Shown here: piece after piece, positions 13,399 through 20,204 of the stretch
How the letters are laid out: the number at the start of each line of letters is the position of its first letter
Numbering within the stretch: position 1 is the first letter of the stretch
From: Nitrososphaerota archaeon
GTDB lineage: Archaea; Thermoproteota; Nitrososphaeria; Nitrososphaerales; Nitrosopumilaceae
DNA length: 64,000 nt
Direction: 5' to 3'
NCBI GenBank assembly: GCA_016872055.1
Contig: VHBH01000003.1
Coordinates: 1-64,000 of the forward strand
Notes under the pieces: model-generated
Seen by the model: the letters and a program-made list of their open reading frames with translations, nothing else
What the model was told of the DNA's origin: nothing
The model's database searches: none
Translations under genes and position numbers: made by a program

Positions 13399-13971
13399 AT
13401 GAAGATTGACCAAATAGATTTGGCATTTTTGCACCTGGCAATATCACATAATGATAAATTCGACGAGCAAGACCTGGCAGGGTCGGAACTTGCCTATCTT
13501 GGTGTCGGCAGAACGCTTGACAAGCTAGCATATCTCAAAGAAAACAACCTGATCCAGTTGGACGGGAAATCATTTAGAATCACAGATGTTGCAAAAAAGA
13601 TCTATTGGGGCAAAGACACGCCACTGCAAACTAGGATCCTAAGGTTGCTCCAAGTAAAGTCATTTGAAGAGTCAGACATTGCAAAATATCTGATAGAAGA
13701 ACCACAATCAGTCCAGGAAAAAATCGACGAGGCCAGAAAACACGGATTACTTATTTTTACTACAATAAAAAAGGACGAAAAAATCATCAAAATCTGCGAA
13801 ATTACACAGGAAGGAAACGAATTCCTACAAATACAGTCGCTAGACCCAAAGTCACAACTGCAAAAAACACTTCAAGACATTTCAAATAGAATTCAAAACT
13901 CCATGCTAGATGATGTCAAAATAAAAGAAATCCTAGAAAAAATGCAAAAAATCTCTACTGAGCTGGACTAG
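13399..13971 (+). CDS. Winged-helix DNA-binding-like protein
   Basis: 190 residues from the ATG at 13399. Residues 1-75 look like a winged helix (ELAYLGVGRTLDKLAYLKEN, then LIQLDGKSFRITDVAKKIYW) and a second wHTH-like segment follows (LRLLQVKSFEESDIAKYLIE ... VQEKIDEARKHGLLI); the end is a coiled coil. Probably a DNA-binding regulator, by pattern only. An upstream in-frame ATG at 13306 gives an unlikely 31-residue extension. Its 3' end overlaps the SNF2 gene by 17 nt. Confidence 0.75.
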   Translation: MKIDQIDLAFLHLAISHNDKFDEQDLAGSELAYLGVGRTLDKLAYLKENNLIQLDGKSFRITDVAKKIYWGKDTPLQTRILRLLQVKSFEESDIAKYLIEEPQSVQEKIDEARKHGLLIFTTIKKDEKIIKICEITQEGNEFLQIQSLDPKSQLQKTLQDISNRIQNSMLDDVKIKEILEKMQKISTELD

Positions 13972-16312
13972 CCTGCATTATTGCTTTGACCTTGTCCTGG
14001 ATTTGTGCCAAGATGAGCTCTGCTTTACCCTTGTTCTCAAATGACTCTACCTTGTTGTCCATGATTGCGTCAATTTCGTAGCTTTTATCCACCAGAACTC
14101 GCGCGACGTGTTCATCCAGGGTTCCGTTTCCCATCAAATAGTACGCAAAGACTGTATTTTTTTGGCCTATTCTGTGCAATCTGTCTTCTGCCTGCAGGTG
14201 TATTGCAGGGCTCCAATCAAGCTCCGCAAAGATTACGTATTTTGCCCTAGTCAGATTAATTCCTACATTTCCTGCTCGCAGTCCCGCAATCATGAGTTTT
14301 GTCTGGCCTCCCTGGAACGAGTCAATATTGTCTTGTCTCTGCTTGTCTGTTTGTCCTCCAATTATTGATGATGGTTTGAACTCAGAGAGGCTCTGGTGCA
14401 ACAAGGTATGAATTGATTTGTGGTGGCAGAACACTACTACACTTTCCTCTATTTCCATTATGTTTTTGACAAAGTTGATGACATGTGGGAGTTTTGCAGC
14501 CCCTGCCGCTTGTCTTTCGCTTTGAATTGCCCGCTGGTATGCAGTAGACGCATCAAATGCCGTTTGTGCCTCTTTGCGTTCGTCTTCCAGTTTTTTCCAG
14601 ATTCTCTCCAGCTCTTTGTTATAGTAGTTGATATCAGAGTCGATTATCTCCTTGTAACGAATTTTCTCTTTGAGTTCAGTTAGCACGTCTGTTTTTTTGC
14701 GCCTCAGCATTACGTGTTTTTGTAGCATGTTTCGGAGTGACTCGCGCTTGTTTTCCAAAACTATTGCCTTTCCTTTTTCGTTTACATAGCAGAAATATTC
14801 GCAGAATTCCTTATAGCTTCCAAGCAGTCCTGGGCGCAAAATATCAACGATGGGCCAAATCTCCGAACCCCGATTATAGATTGGCGTACCGGACAGTCCA
14901 ATTCTGTACTTGACAGATTCCAGTGCGGCAAGTTTTTTGATTGCATGATATTTTTGCGTGGTCTTGGAGCGTAGGTTCTGCACCTCATCACATACGATTG
15001 TTTTTAGTCCAATCTTTGCGAGGTCCTTGTATCTTTTGTACAATAATTCATAATTGATAATGTAGAAGTCATATTTTTCAAGTGCCTCGGATTTTCCTAC
15101 CCTAATTATGGTAGATGTTGGCGCCTCACCTTCCAATAGTCTGCCGTTTCTGCTTTTTCGCACCATGAATTTTTCAATTTCTCTCTGCCAGTTTTGCAGG
15201 GTTACCAGAGGTGCCACGATAAGTGCAGGAAATGCGTTTTGCTCCGATGCCAAATATGATAATGACTGAACTGTGTTGTGCGATAAAATTCCGTTTACCA
15301 CATAGTTGTGGGTTTGCGGAACTGATAGATCATAGACAAATCCAGTATAATGCCTTGTGCCAATTTCCTTGACTGCGCACCAATTGATTGATTCCATTGT
15401 AGTTTGTTTCTGCTCTGATGGCGATTCATGGTGGTATGATTTTTCCAGTCTGTCGATTATCAAGTAAGCCGAGTTCTTGCTCATTCCTTGAGTGTACTTG
15501 TATGGTGTAAACAAATTCAATGAGTGAGGTGAGATTCCGCTGTCAGTCACTTTGCGAATTATGTGCTGCGATGGCACCGTAACCTTGTCTTGTATGGTCA
15601 ACTCTCCTGCTTTTTTCCATCCATAAACAGTCAAGAAACGATGACGTTTTGTACATTGTATGGTGGAGCCATCACACAACGTGAGTTTTACAATTTCTTC
15701 GTCAATTTTTTGTCGGAATATTTTGTCGACTTTTTTCAAAATAATCTTATTTCCATCAAACGTTTGAACGTTAATTGGATGATTCAGTTTGGCCCACGAT
15801 TCGTTACCGTCCTGTTCAGTGATTACAGAATCATTCCATAATTGTTGAATTTGGATTGGTCCAGAACCCGTCTCTATTATAGAATCACCCAAAACACACT
15901 TGCCCAACCCCATTTCGTCGGCAAGCAGTGCGTTTCCAGCAGACTTGAGCAAAAAGTCAAGGCCTTCCCTCTGAAAGTTAAGCAGATTTCCCTTGAATTG
16001 CTTACCTGGATTTGCTAGCTGCAATCGTTCCGTCTTTTTTGGCTTTTTTGGAATTACTTTGTTAGAAGGCGGGAGTTTTTTTTGCCAAACATTTTTTGAT
16101 AGGATCTCCAGTGGATACCTGTCCATAATCCACTTGATCTGTGCTACATTTTTTGGCTCGTCTGGGACAATTGCCTCATATTCACCGTCGCCATACCAGG
16201 CCTGCGGAATTATTCTGGATACCATGGCTACTGCTCGCTCGCCTGTTACCTTCCAGCTCCACGTGCCAGAGAATTTGTCCATTACATATTCCAGTGTGCC
16301 GAAATTAGTCAT
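13955..16312 (-). CDS. SNF2-family helicase with mini-intein in the Walker A motif
   Basis: 785-residue precursor. N-terminal residues 1-110 resemble the HARP/SMARCAL1-like lead-in; the helicase core starts near 110 (NLLNFQREGLDFLLKSAG). Walker A reads DEMGLGK, then an intein (residues 139-346), then TVQSL; after splicing it becomes the canonical GLGKT. Motif II is DEVQ, motif III SGTP, and motif VI DRLHRIGQ. The mature helicase is about 577 residues. SNF2 ATPases translocate on duplex DNA; SMARCAL1-type enzymes anneal or remodel forks. Convergent overlap with 13399-13971. Confidence 0.93.
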   Translation of the reverse strand: MTNFGTLEYVMDKFSGTWSWKVTGERAVAMVSRIIPQAWYGDGEYEAIVPDEPKNVAQIKWIMDRYPLEILSKNVWQKKLPPSNKVIPKKPKKTERLQLANPGKQFKGNLLNFQREGLDFLLKSAGNALLADEMGLGKCVLGDSIIETGSGPIQIQQLWNDSVITEQDGNESWAKLNHPINVQTFDGNKIILKKVDKIFRQKIDEEIVKLTLCDGSTIQCTKRHRFLTVYGWKKAGELTIQDKVTVPSQHIIRKVTDSGISPHSLNLFTPYKYTQGMSKNSAYLIIDRLEKSYHHESPSEQKQTTMESINWCAVKEIGTRHYTGFVYDLSVPQTHNYVVNGILSHNTVQSLSYLASEQNAFPALIVAPLVTLQNWQREIEKFMVRKSRNGRLLEGEAPTSTIIRVGKSEALEKYDFYIINYELLYKRYKDLAKIGLKTIVCDEVQNLRSKTTQKYHAIKKLAALESVKYRIGLSGTPIYNRGSEIWPIVDILRPGLLGSYKEFCEYFCYVNEKGKAIVLENKRESLRNMLQKHVMLRRKKTDVLTELKEKIRYKEIIDSDINYYNKELERIWKKLEDERKEAQTAFDASTAYQRAIQSERQAAGAAKLPHVINFVKNIMEIEESVVVFCHHKSIHTLLHQSLSEFKPSSIIGGQTDKQRQDNIDSFQGGQTKLMIAGLRAGNVGINLTRAKYVIFAELDWSPAIHLQAEDRLHRIGQKNTVFAYYLMGNGTLDEHVARVLVDKSYEIDAIMDNKVESFENKGKAELILAQIQDKVKAIMQASPAQ
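15275..15898 (-). other. Mini-intein (208 residues) inside the SNF2 gene
   Basis: In-frame protein intein inserted between K138 and T347 of the P-loop. Block A begins CVLGDSIIET with Cys1; block B is GSTIQCTKRHRFLT containing TxxH; block F and G are GFVYDLSVPQTHNYVVNGI and the terminal HN, followed by extein Thr as the +1 nucleophile. About 90 residues separate blocks B and F, too few for a LAGLIDADG homing endonuclease, and no such motif is visible, so it is a mini-intein, presumably fixed. All splicing residues expected for an active intein are present (C1, penultimate H, N, +1 T). Confidence 0.93.
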
Positions 16313-18062: not shown

Positions 18063-20204
18063 TTATACTGCTTCTCGCACAGTCTTTATTTTGGCAATTG
18101 CAGTTGGTGCGCTGTTGATTGGCTCTACAGTTACCGTTACTGTGTCCATTGCACTGCGTCCGGTTCCGTCGCTGACAGTAATTTCAAAGGTAAGCTTCTT
18201 TGTTTCACCGTTTGCAACTAGTGGTGCAGTGAACGATGGTTTTGCAACGTCATTTGCAGAGAGTTCTACCTGTACGCCAGAGATTTGTCTCCAGTTGTAG
18301 GAGAGATTGTGCTTCATTTGGTCCTTACCAGAGCCAAAGAGTGTTACCTTAGAGTTTTCTTGAACTCGCTGGTCATTGCCTGCATTTGCAGTTATTATCT
18401 TTACAGGGGCTCCTTTAACCATGACATCTACTGTGTCTGGTTCGCTATCTTTTGAGCCGTCGTTTGCAATTAACTGGAATGTGATTACAGCGTCAACTTC
18501 GGTCTTTGGAGCAACAAATGAAGTCTCTAGTTCTGTGCTGGTTGATAATTCAACTGTCGGACCAGAGATTTGGTTCCACAGGTATGTCAATGGTTCGTCA
18601 TCTTCATCAGATGAAGTACCTGCAAGTGAAATGGTATCGCCAATCTTTACTTCTTGGTCTTCTCCAGCATCAACCACTGGTGGCATGTTAACTGGTAGTA
18701 TTGTGACTTTGGAAATATCCTTGGTTGGGTAGCCGTTTTCATCTGCTACTTGTAACTCAAAGACAAGTATCTTGAATTTACCATTTGCCACCACAGGTGC
18801 AGTAAATGTTGGTTCTGCAGATTCAGTATCAAATAGTTCGACTGCTTCGCCGCCTATTTGCTTCCAAGAGAATGTAATCTCATCGCTGTCAGGGTCAGTA
18901 CCAGTGCCTGCAAGTGTGACTTCGGTTTGCTCATCTACGACTTGATCAGATCCAGCGTCTGCAGATGCTCGAACATTGTCTGATGCGACTGTTACCGTTA
19001 CGGTGTCGCTGTCTTCGGCGCCGGATGGGTCAGTAACTGTTAATTCAAATGTTAGTTCAGTTGATGCGCCTCCAAAAACCTCTGGTGCCTTGAATCTTGC
19101 ATCGCCCTTTGTTTGGTATGCAATTACTACATCATCTCCACCAACTTGGCTCCAGGAATATTTGATAATGTCTCCATCCGGATCAGAACCAGTACCTGCT
19201 AAGTAGACAAATCTATTTGATATCGAGTTCTTATCAGGTCCTGCATCTGCCATTGGTCCATCATTTACTGGTCGGACTCTGACAATTACAACGTCGGTTG
19301 CTGAACCGCCGTCTTCTGCTTGGCATGTAAATCTAAATGCTGTTGGAACAATTTTGCTGTTTGAAATTTCTGGTGCTACAAATGTTAGGTCAGAGTCAGC
19401 GTTAGATGATAATTCCACAAATGGACCTAGTGTTTGTACCCAAGAGTAATTCTGCTCTCTGTCAAGCTTGTCGTCGCATGTGCCCTCTAACTGTACTGTG
19501 TCACCCTCGTCCACAATTTGGTCACGTCCTGCAGACACAGAGATTAGTGAAGGCTTGGCTGCAGTCATTTTTACTGTCATGGTGTCTTTGGCCATTCCTC
19601 CAAAGCCGTCAAATACAATTAATTGGAATGTGAAAATGGCTGAGCCTCTAGTTACACTTGAGGTGTCAAAGCTTGGTGTTTGTGATGAAGGGTCATCAAG
19701 TTGTATTTTTGGGCCGGTGATTTGTGACCAGTTGTATCTGAGTGCATCGCCCTCAGGGTCGGAACCAGAGCCGTCAAGTGTGACTTCGTCACCTTTTTCG
19801 ACTGTTTGGTCAGAACCTGCGTCAGCTGTTGGCTGCTGGTTTCTTGGTAAAATAGTGACTTTAACTAAATCAGTATCAATTTCTCCATAAGCATCTTCTA
19901 CGGTTAATTCAAAGGTTAGGACTTTAACTCTGCCATTTTCTACCATTGGAGCTTTGAAGGTTGGCTCTGCAACCGTGTTTGATGGGGTCAGTTCGACTTG
20001 TTCTCCGCGGACTTGGACCCAAGAGATTGTAAGTGAGTCATCGTCTGGATCGATTCCTTGACCCATCAGGGTTACAAAGTCGCCAGATTTTGCATAATTT
20101 TGGACGTTTTGAGTCGATGGTGTAACTGCAGCAAATGCTGGAGATACAATCATGCTACCAACTAGTAACGCCATCAAAACTGTTAGTGATTTTAGTTGCA
20201 ACAT
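18063..20204 (-). CDS. Large secreted PKD/Ig-like repeat protein
   Basis: 713 residues. Signal peptide (LTVLMALLVGSMIVSPAFA), then about seven repeats of about 95 residues. Each unit has ADAGSDQ-VxEGDxVxLxG, a SDPDGDxIxYSW core and a T/FxLxVxD tail, the PKD/REJ-like Ig fold. No C-terminal anchor was recognised. Repeat number and order are visible directly; a role in S-layer or surface structure is inferred. The gene faces a 250-nt divergent promoter region rich in GATCA. Confidence 0.88.
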   Translation of the reverse strand: MLQLKSLTVLMALLVGSMIVSPAFAAVTPSTQNVQNYAKSGDFVTLMGQGIDPDDDSLTISWVQVRGEQVELTPSNTVAEPTFKAPMVENGRVKVLTFELTVEDAYGEIDTDLVKVTILPRNQQPTADAGSDQTVEKGDEVTLDGSGSDPEGDALRYNWSQITGPKIQLDDPSSQTPSFDTSSVTRGSAIFTFQLIVFDGFGGMAKDTMTVKMTAAKPSLISVSAGRDQIVDEGDTVQLEGTCDDKLDREQNYSWVQTLGPFVELSSNADSDLTFVAPEISNSKIVPTAFRFTCQAEDGGSATDVVIVRVRPVNDGPMADAGPDKNSISNRFVYLAGTGSDPDGDIIKYSWSQVGGDDVVIAYQTKGDARFKAPEVFGGASTELTFELTVTDPSGAEDSDTVTVTVASDNVRASADAGSDQVVDEQTEVTLAGTGTDPDSDEITFSWKQIGGEAVELFDTESAEPTFTAPVVANGKFKILVFELQVADENGYPTKDISKVTILPVNMPPVVDAGEDQEVKIGDTISLAGTSSDEDDEPLTYLWNQISGPTVELSTSTELETSFVAPKTEVDAVITFQLIANDGSKDSEPDTVDVMVKGAPVKIITANAGNDQRVQENSKVTLFGSGKDQMKHNLSYNWRQISGVQVELSANDVAKPSFTAPLVANGETKKLTFEITVSDGTGRSAMDTVTVTVEPINSAPTAIAKIKTVREAV

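Follow-up and report, generated by a model that had tools for sequence, protein, structure and literature searches.

An endonuclease-less intein in the Walker A motif of an archaeal SNF2/Rad54-type ATPase and its same-site alleles in the Nitrosopumilaceae

The window analysed here, 64,000 nucleotides of contig VHBH01000003.1 from a Nitrosopumilaceae genome (G000; relative genomes are denoted by other G numbers), carries on its reverse strand a gene for an SNF2/Rad54-type ATPase whose Walker A motif is interrupted by an intein without an endonuclease. We consider it about 90% probable that this class 1 intein was inherited and is now late in the homing cycle, its endonuclease having been deleted while its HINT domain still splices. 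Full-length, shortened and empty states of the same site are found within the family, and the endonuclease has been lost there on multiple separate occasions.

Anatomy of the precursor and of the deletion

The precursor is a 785-aa open reading frame (13955–16312, minus strand), assigned from its translation, Pfam matches and the structure match of its C-extein. Alignment with intein-free orthologues delimits an N-extein of 138 aa (15899–16312, minus strand) ending in the Walker A sequence DEMGLGK. The C-extein of 439 aa (13958–15274, minus strand) starts with the +1 residue Thr347, which completes Walker A, and contains the rest of the motor and the helicase C domain. Residues 139–346 form the insert, a 208-aa intein running from Cys1 to His207-Asn208 and encoded by exactly 15275–15898 (minus strand), and the extein sequence around it reads ...LLADEMGLGK138/T347VQSLSYL.... 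The sequence-only reading had placed the intein exactly at GLGK|T; it does lie between Lys138 and Thr347, with coordinates correct to the base. Pfam identified the SNF2 motor (SNF2-rel_dom, PF00176, E=3e-37) and the helicase C domain (Helicase_C, PF00271, E=2e-16) in the host protein, and these domains, together with Walker A and motif VI, identify an SNF2/Rad54 ATPase. In the PDB, the C-extein comes closest to a helicase of the snf2/rad54 family (1z63, E=6e-41). The G000 gene contains no stops; the assembly is incomplete and consists of multiple contigs, and the same pattern recurs in relatives. A 713-aa open reading frame elsewhere in the window (18063–20204, minus strand) probably encodes a repetitive surface protein: it apparently has a signal sequence at its N-terminus, and a unit of the type ADAGxDQxVxxGxxVxLxGxxSD recurs in it several times.

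The insert scored 81.9 bits (E=6e-23) with the Pfam model Intein_splicing (PF14890), whose cut-off is 35.8, and it also exceeded the cut-offs of the NCBIfam N- and C-terminal splice models TIGR01443 and TIGR01445. Compared with PDB inteins by sequence it matched 1mi8 (E=1.6e-10), and a Foldseek comparison of its AlphaFold model with known folds returned the TvoVMA intein (4o1s) and many other inteins, with E down to 1e-11. The pLDDT of this model is about 92–98 over residues 1–110 and mostly above 90 outside the linker described below. All of the splice residues listed in the sequence-only reading are present, namely Cys1, block B T83-x-x-H86, His207-Asn208 and the +1 Thr. Block B reads T83-K-R-H86; its T and H, like Cys1 and H207-N208, are invariant across 24 homologues, and all 28 carriers have Thr at position +1. 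The insert is confirmed as a class 1 intein with a HINT fold and is no chance match. Its N-terminal splicing region, with the block A Cys1 and block B, comprises residues 1–111 (15566–15898, minus strand), as defined by AlphaFold pLDDT and invariant columns, and its C-terminal splicing region (YDLSVPQTHNY...HN) comprises residues 169–208 (15275–15394, minus strand), as defined by NCBIfam, invariant columns and AlphaFold. No further match to the intein's family was found in the G000 genome, and a Pfam search there found no second intein.

Alignment to full-length relatives bears out the earlier statement that the endonuclease domain is lost: both LAGLIDADG motifs are absent, and about 57 aa from behind the endonuclease are kept. 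Pfam found no LAGLIDADG match in the window protein, as against PF14528 in full-length homologues, where the LAGLIDADG_3 match at the same site has E=3e-10. The model of one full-length intein, that of G002, is similar to TliVMA and PI-PfuI and, in its nuclease part, to I-DmoI. The remnant in the window intein, residues 112–168 (15395–15565, minus strand; delimited by pLDDT, alignment and the G002 model), has pLDDT below 50 and is predicted to be a disordered linker; the region after the nuclease is helical in the G002 model (helices 328–336, 358–370 and 374–384). Mini-inteins typically have a minimal size of about 130–170 aa, although this range does not strictly define the group. At 208 aa the window intein lies above it, and a copy of only 163 aa occurs at the same site in G250. 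Because the 57-residue remnant stays, the window copy is not an especially small mini-intein; the label is right, but the emphasis that had been put on its small size was overstated.

The G000 deletion is 648–651 bp long, in frame, and falls on PSQ codons (intein residues 109–111; 15566–15574, minus strand), which full-length relatives have at either end of the missing segment. In the full-length copy of G013 the deletion ends carry a short direct repeat, TTCCATCACAA/TTCCATCCCAA, and the G000 junction lies within the sole 10-of-11 in-frame direct repeat between the G013 flanks (6,933 pairs tested). In a second test the repeat match has p=0.003 with G013 and is weaker, at p=0.057, with the closer relative G002. 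Microhomology at the deletion ends is strong for G000 (with G013) and G251, and weak or absent for G258, G222 and G148. As a general rule of endonuclease loss it was dropped, being uneven across events; the combined p of 6e-4 is only suggestive, and is optimistic because the first-listed full-length relative was taken for each event.

Alleles at one site and their descent

In a survey of 250 family genomes, one per species, 28 carried an intein of the window type, 11 of them full-length (424–428 aa; the G244 copy is a fragment cut off by a contig end) and 17 without endonuclease (163–240 aa). The insertion site is identical in every carrier having both flanks in sequence. The host had been taken from sequence to be thaumarchaeal, and its kin are indeed Nitrosopumilaceae and Nitrosotalea MAGs. 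A database search for the same insertion point in other SNF2 proteins, which the earlier reading had proposed as a check, recovered these 28 family members and cyanobacterial SNF2 proteins of the sll1366 type. The full-length Nitrosopumilaceae copies, among them those of G002 (VHBK01000004.1) and G231 (Ca. Nitrosotalea sp. TS), share the insertion codon and splice residues with the window intein but keep a two-motif endonuclease. In the genome-wide scan, no SNF2 copies from outside the family were present among the best 80 matches, and matches in proteins other than SNF2 belonged to different intein alleles, such as those of UvrD/PcrA-type helicases.

The Nostoc/Anabaena inteins in sll1366-family SNF2 proteins (L197–L199) occupy the identical site, GLGK/C...HN/T, but are full-length (434–467 aa) and belong to a distant, bacterial host family. 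They are homologous to the full-length archaeal inteins over the whole length including the endonuclease, with about 30% identity and E down to 3e-66, and the NCBIfam model of the sll1366 family (NF058636, 'intein-prone') ends at the same Lys as the window insertion. Since the Nostoc/Anabaena members carry a homologous intein at GLGK/T, the insertion site is common to archaea and bacteria, and not new. The P-loop is a common place of intein insertion (PMC5874633). According to PMC11219805, which cites Southworth and Perler 2002, splicing has been demonstrated experimentally for the Snf2 intein of Deinococcus radiodurans, whose host protein is likewise an SNF2/Rad54 helicase. The titles and abstracts of papers on thaumarchaeal inteins, subscription papers being outside this scope, do not describe the SNF2 allele. 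For halobacterial inteins, too, related species are known to have the same site empty, full or occupied by a mini (PMC4071816); these concern other host genes and another lineage, whereas here endonuclease loss has been repeated many times at one site in one family. A cycle of invasion, fixation, nuclease loss and intein loss, with mini-inteins as a late phase under strong purifying selection, is established (PMC8966425, PMC4071816, PMC7765530).

Presence of the intein is scattered over the host-gene tree no better than random: on 82 sequences the empty, full and mini states need 25 changes, compared with 25.8 in shuffles. In the intein tree, G000 is sister to the full-length copy of G002 (support 100/98), which is its closest intein relative (425 aa, 83% identical over shared columns). 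The nearest relative of the host gene is instead that of G014, a complete genome, with 98% protein and 92.8% DNA identity and no intein; synteny between G000 and G014 is intact on both sides, and the intein is the sole interruption.

Two other accounts of this distribution were weighed. One is that all mini-inteins of the family derive from a single endonuclease loss and then spread as mini-inteins. Some junctions are nested, so that trimming of a G148-like form could have produced G068 and G222, and G251 and G256 have a junction in common. Against this, the tree places each of the minis of G000, G258, G242 and G236 beside a full-length intein of its own, none of 200 bootstrap trees unites the minis in one clade, and the intein tree requires about eight full/mini changes, at least five of them forced by well-supported branches alone. 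Deletion junctions, moreover, differ even between close sisters. A single loss is extremely unlikely, and multiple separate losses at one site within the family are shown. On the other account G014 never had an intein: the window lineage acquired it recently and horizontally, once it had separated from G014, and the intein was then shortened. It is in keeping with the empty site of G014, the host-gene sister of G000, and with the intergenus transfer indicated elsewhere in the family. Between G000 and G002, however, intein dS (0.72) equals extein dS (0.68), as expected from shared descent and loss in G014, and conversion tracts beside the insertion, which would mark recent homing, were not visible at 150-bp resolution. 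We therefore regard recent gain as rather unlikely. Because intein and host gene are equally distant from G002, G000 and G002 probably inherited the intein from a shared ancestor; given an ancestral intein, the empty site of G014 therefore points to a loss, most simply via replacement by an empty allele.

Transfer across genera is indicated for other copies. The inteins of G068, from one genus (L032), and of G222 and G148, from another (L033, L043), differ by a dS of 0.27–0.49, compared with host-gene values from 1.5 to saturation, and each of the three has a different endonuclease deletion. This pattern indicates past, apparently recent homing across genera, probably with separate nuclease losses afterwards. 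The inteins were probably full-length when they moved, because copies without endonuclease cannot home by themselves. A search of viral contigs found no relatives of the intein, and there is thus no sign of a viral carrier.

One further genome, G246 (REEA70 MAG, contig JAGWHF010000002.1; L135, L113), has a second SNF2 intein, about 340 aa long, which interrupts helicase motif VI. The sequence there is QAEDR/CIKQGQ...VVGQASVHN/CHRIGQ and that of orthologues QAEDRLHRIGQ, giving a +1 extein Cys instead of the usual Leu. In the full-length intein of the same genome (L070) the endonuclease, residues 111–324, has the motifs VAEENEY and FDAGGH, as against the usual AEGYEY and FDAEGH or FDSEGH, and may possibly have been inactivated though not yet deleted.

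Selection, splicing and the question of regulation

Host-gene dN/dS is 0.010–0.036 in close carrier pairs (such as G000-G002, G251-G225 and G258-G231) and 0.002–0.030 between carriers and intein-free genomes. For G000-G002 it is 0.017 in the extein and 0.11 in the intein, and pairs of minis give 0.1–0.3 in the splicing region. Inteins with intact motifs may be poor splicers. As host-gene dN/dS is equally low in carriers, splicing probably works and is needed. Division of the Walker A P-loop is expected to abolish ATPase activity. The 208-aa insert parts the P-loop Lys from its Thr, and the unspliced precursor should for that reason be inactive as a helicase. Mini branches look longer in the intein tree, and faster evolution after endonuclease loss was considered as a general claim; it was rejected, only G236 and G247 being clearly faster in relative-rate tests.

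Another reading is that of a decaying intein that no longer splices, in a gene becoming a pseudogene. In its favour, the G000 extein has more unique amino-acid changes than that of G014 (eight versus two), so that slightly relaxed constraint is possible. The frame is nevertheless open throughout and all catalytic residues are intact. Both dN/dS values for G000-G002 are low, and the relative-rate test of the G000 mini against its full-length sister was not significant (nine versus seven unique changes, p=0.80). Decay is accordingly highly improbable. The sequence-only reading had suggested a possible post-translational on/off switch. In a fuller form of this idea, conditional protein splicing would gate the helicase once the endonuclease is lost, as has been proposed for some RadA and DnaB inteins, and copies without endonuclease would be maintained in several lineages by regulation and not by mere inability to be lost. 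The position in the catalytic P-loop, the purifying selection on the splicing domain and the conditional splicing reported for RadA and DnaB inteins (PMC5790916, PMC6195587) favour it. Purifying selection on splicing is expected even without any regulation, however, and the host gene is equally constrained whether or not it has the intein. Between the splicing halves, the linker is free to vary in both length and sequence, as is the junction. The nearest host-gene relative has no intein, and presence is random on the host tree. Because presence of the intein changes from one sister species to the next, the switch finds no support here, and we think it very unlikely.

Our preferred reading, an inherited intein that has lost its endonuclease, would proceed as follows. 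The ancestor shared by G000 and G002 would have carried a full-length LAGLIDADG intein with specificity for the conserved SNF2 Walker A codons. Later, in the window lineage, about 650 bp would have been deleted in frame, and with them the endonuclease; the deletion probably took place between the short direct repeats at the PSQ codons. The remaining HINT domain is predicted to splice through an N-S shift at Cys1, transesterification at Thr+1, cyclisation of Asn208 and an O-N shift, rejoining GLGK-TVQ into a working ATPase. The window copy, having no endonuclease, would no longer be able to move by itself. It would persist because the P-loop would be destroyed if splicing were lost, and its exact removal would require replacement by an empty allele, as proposed for G014.

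Taken singly, the window copy is an ordinary endonuclease-less intein, and its worth lies in the allele series around it. At one codon in one archaeal family there is a useful natural series of alleles, in which the site is empty, holds the full-length intein or holds one of many separately shortened forms, with some of these differences lying between close sisters. With this series one can test directly in what order and by what mechanism the endonuclease is lost, and whether shortened inteins splice worse or vanish faster.
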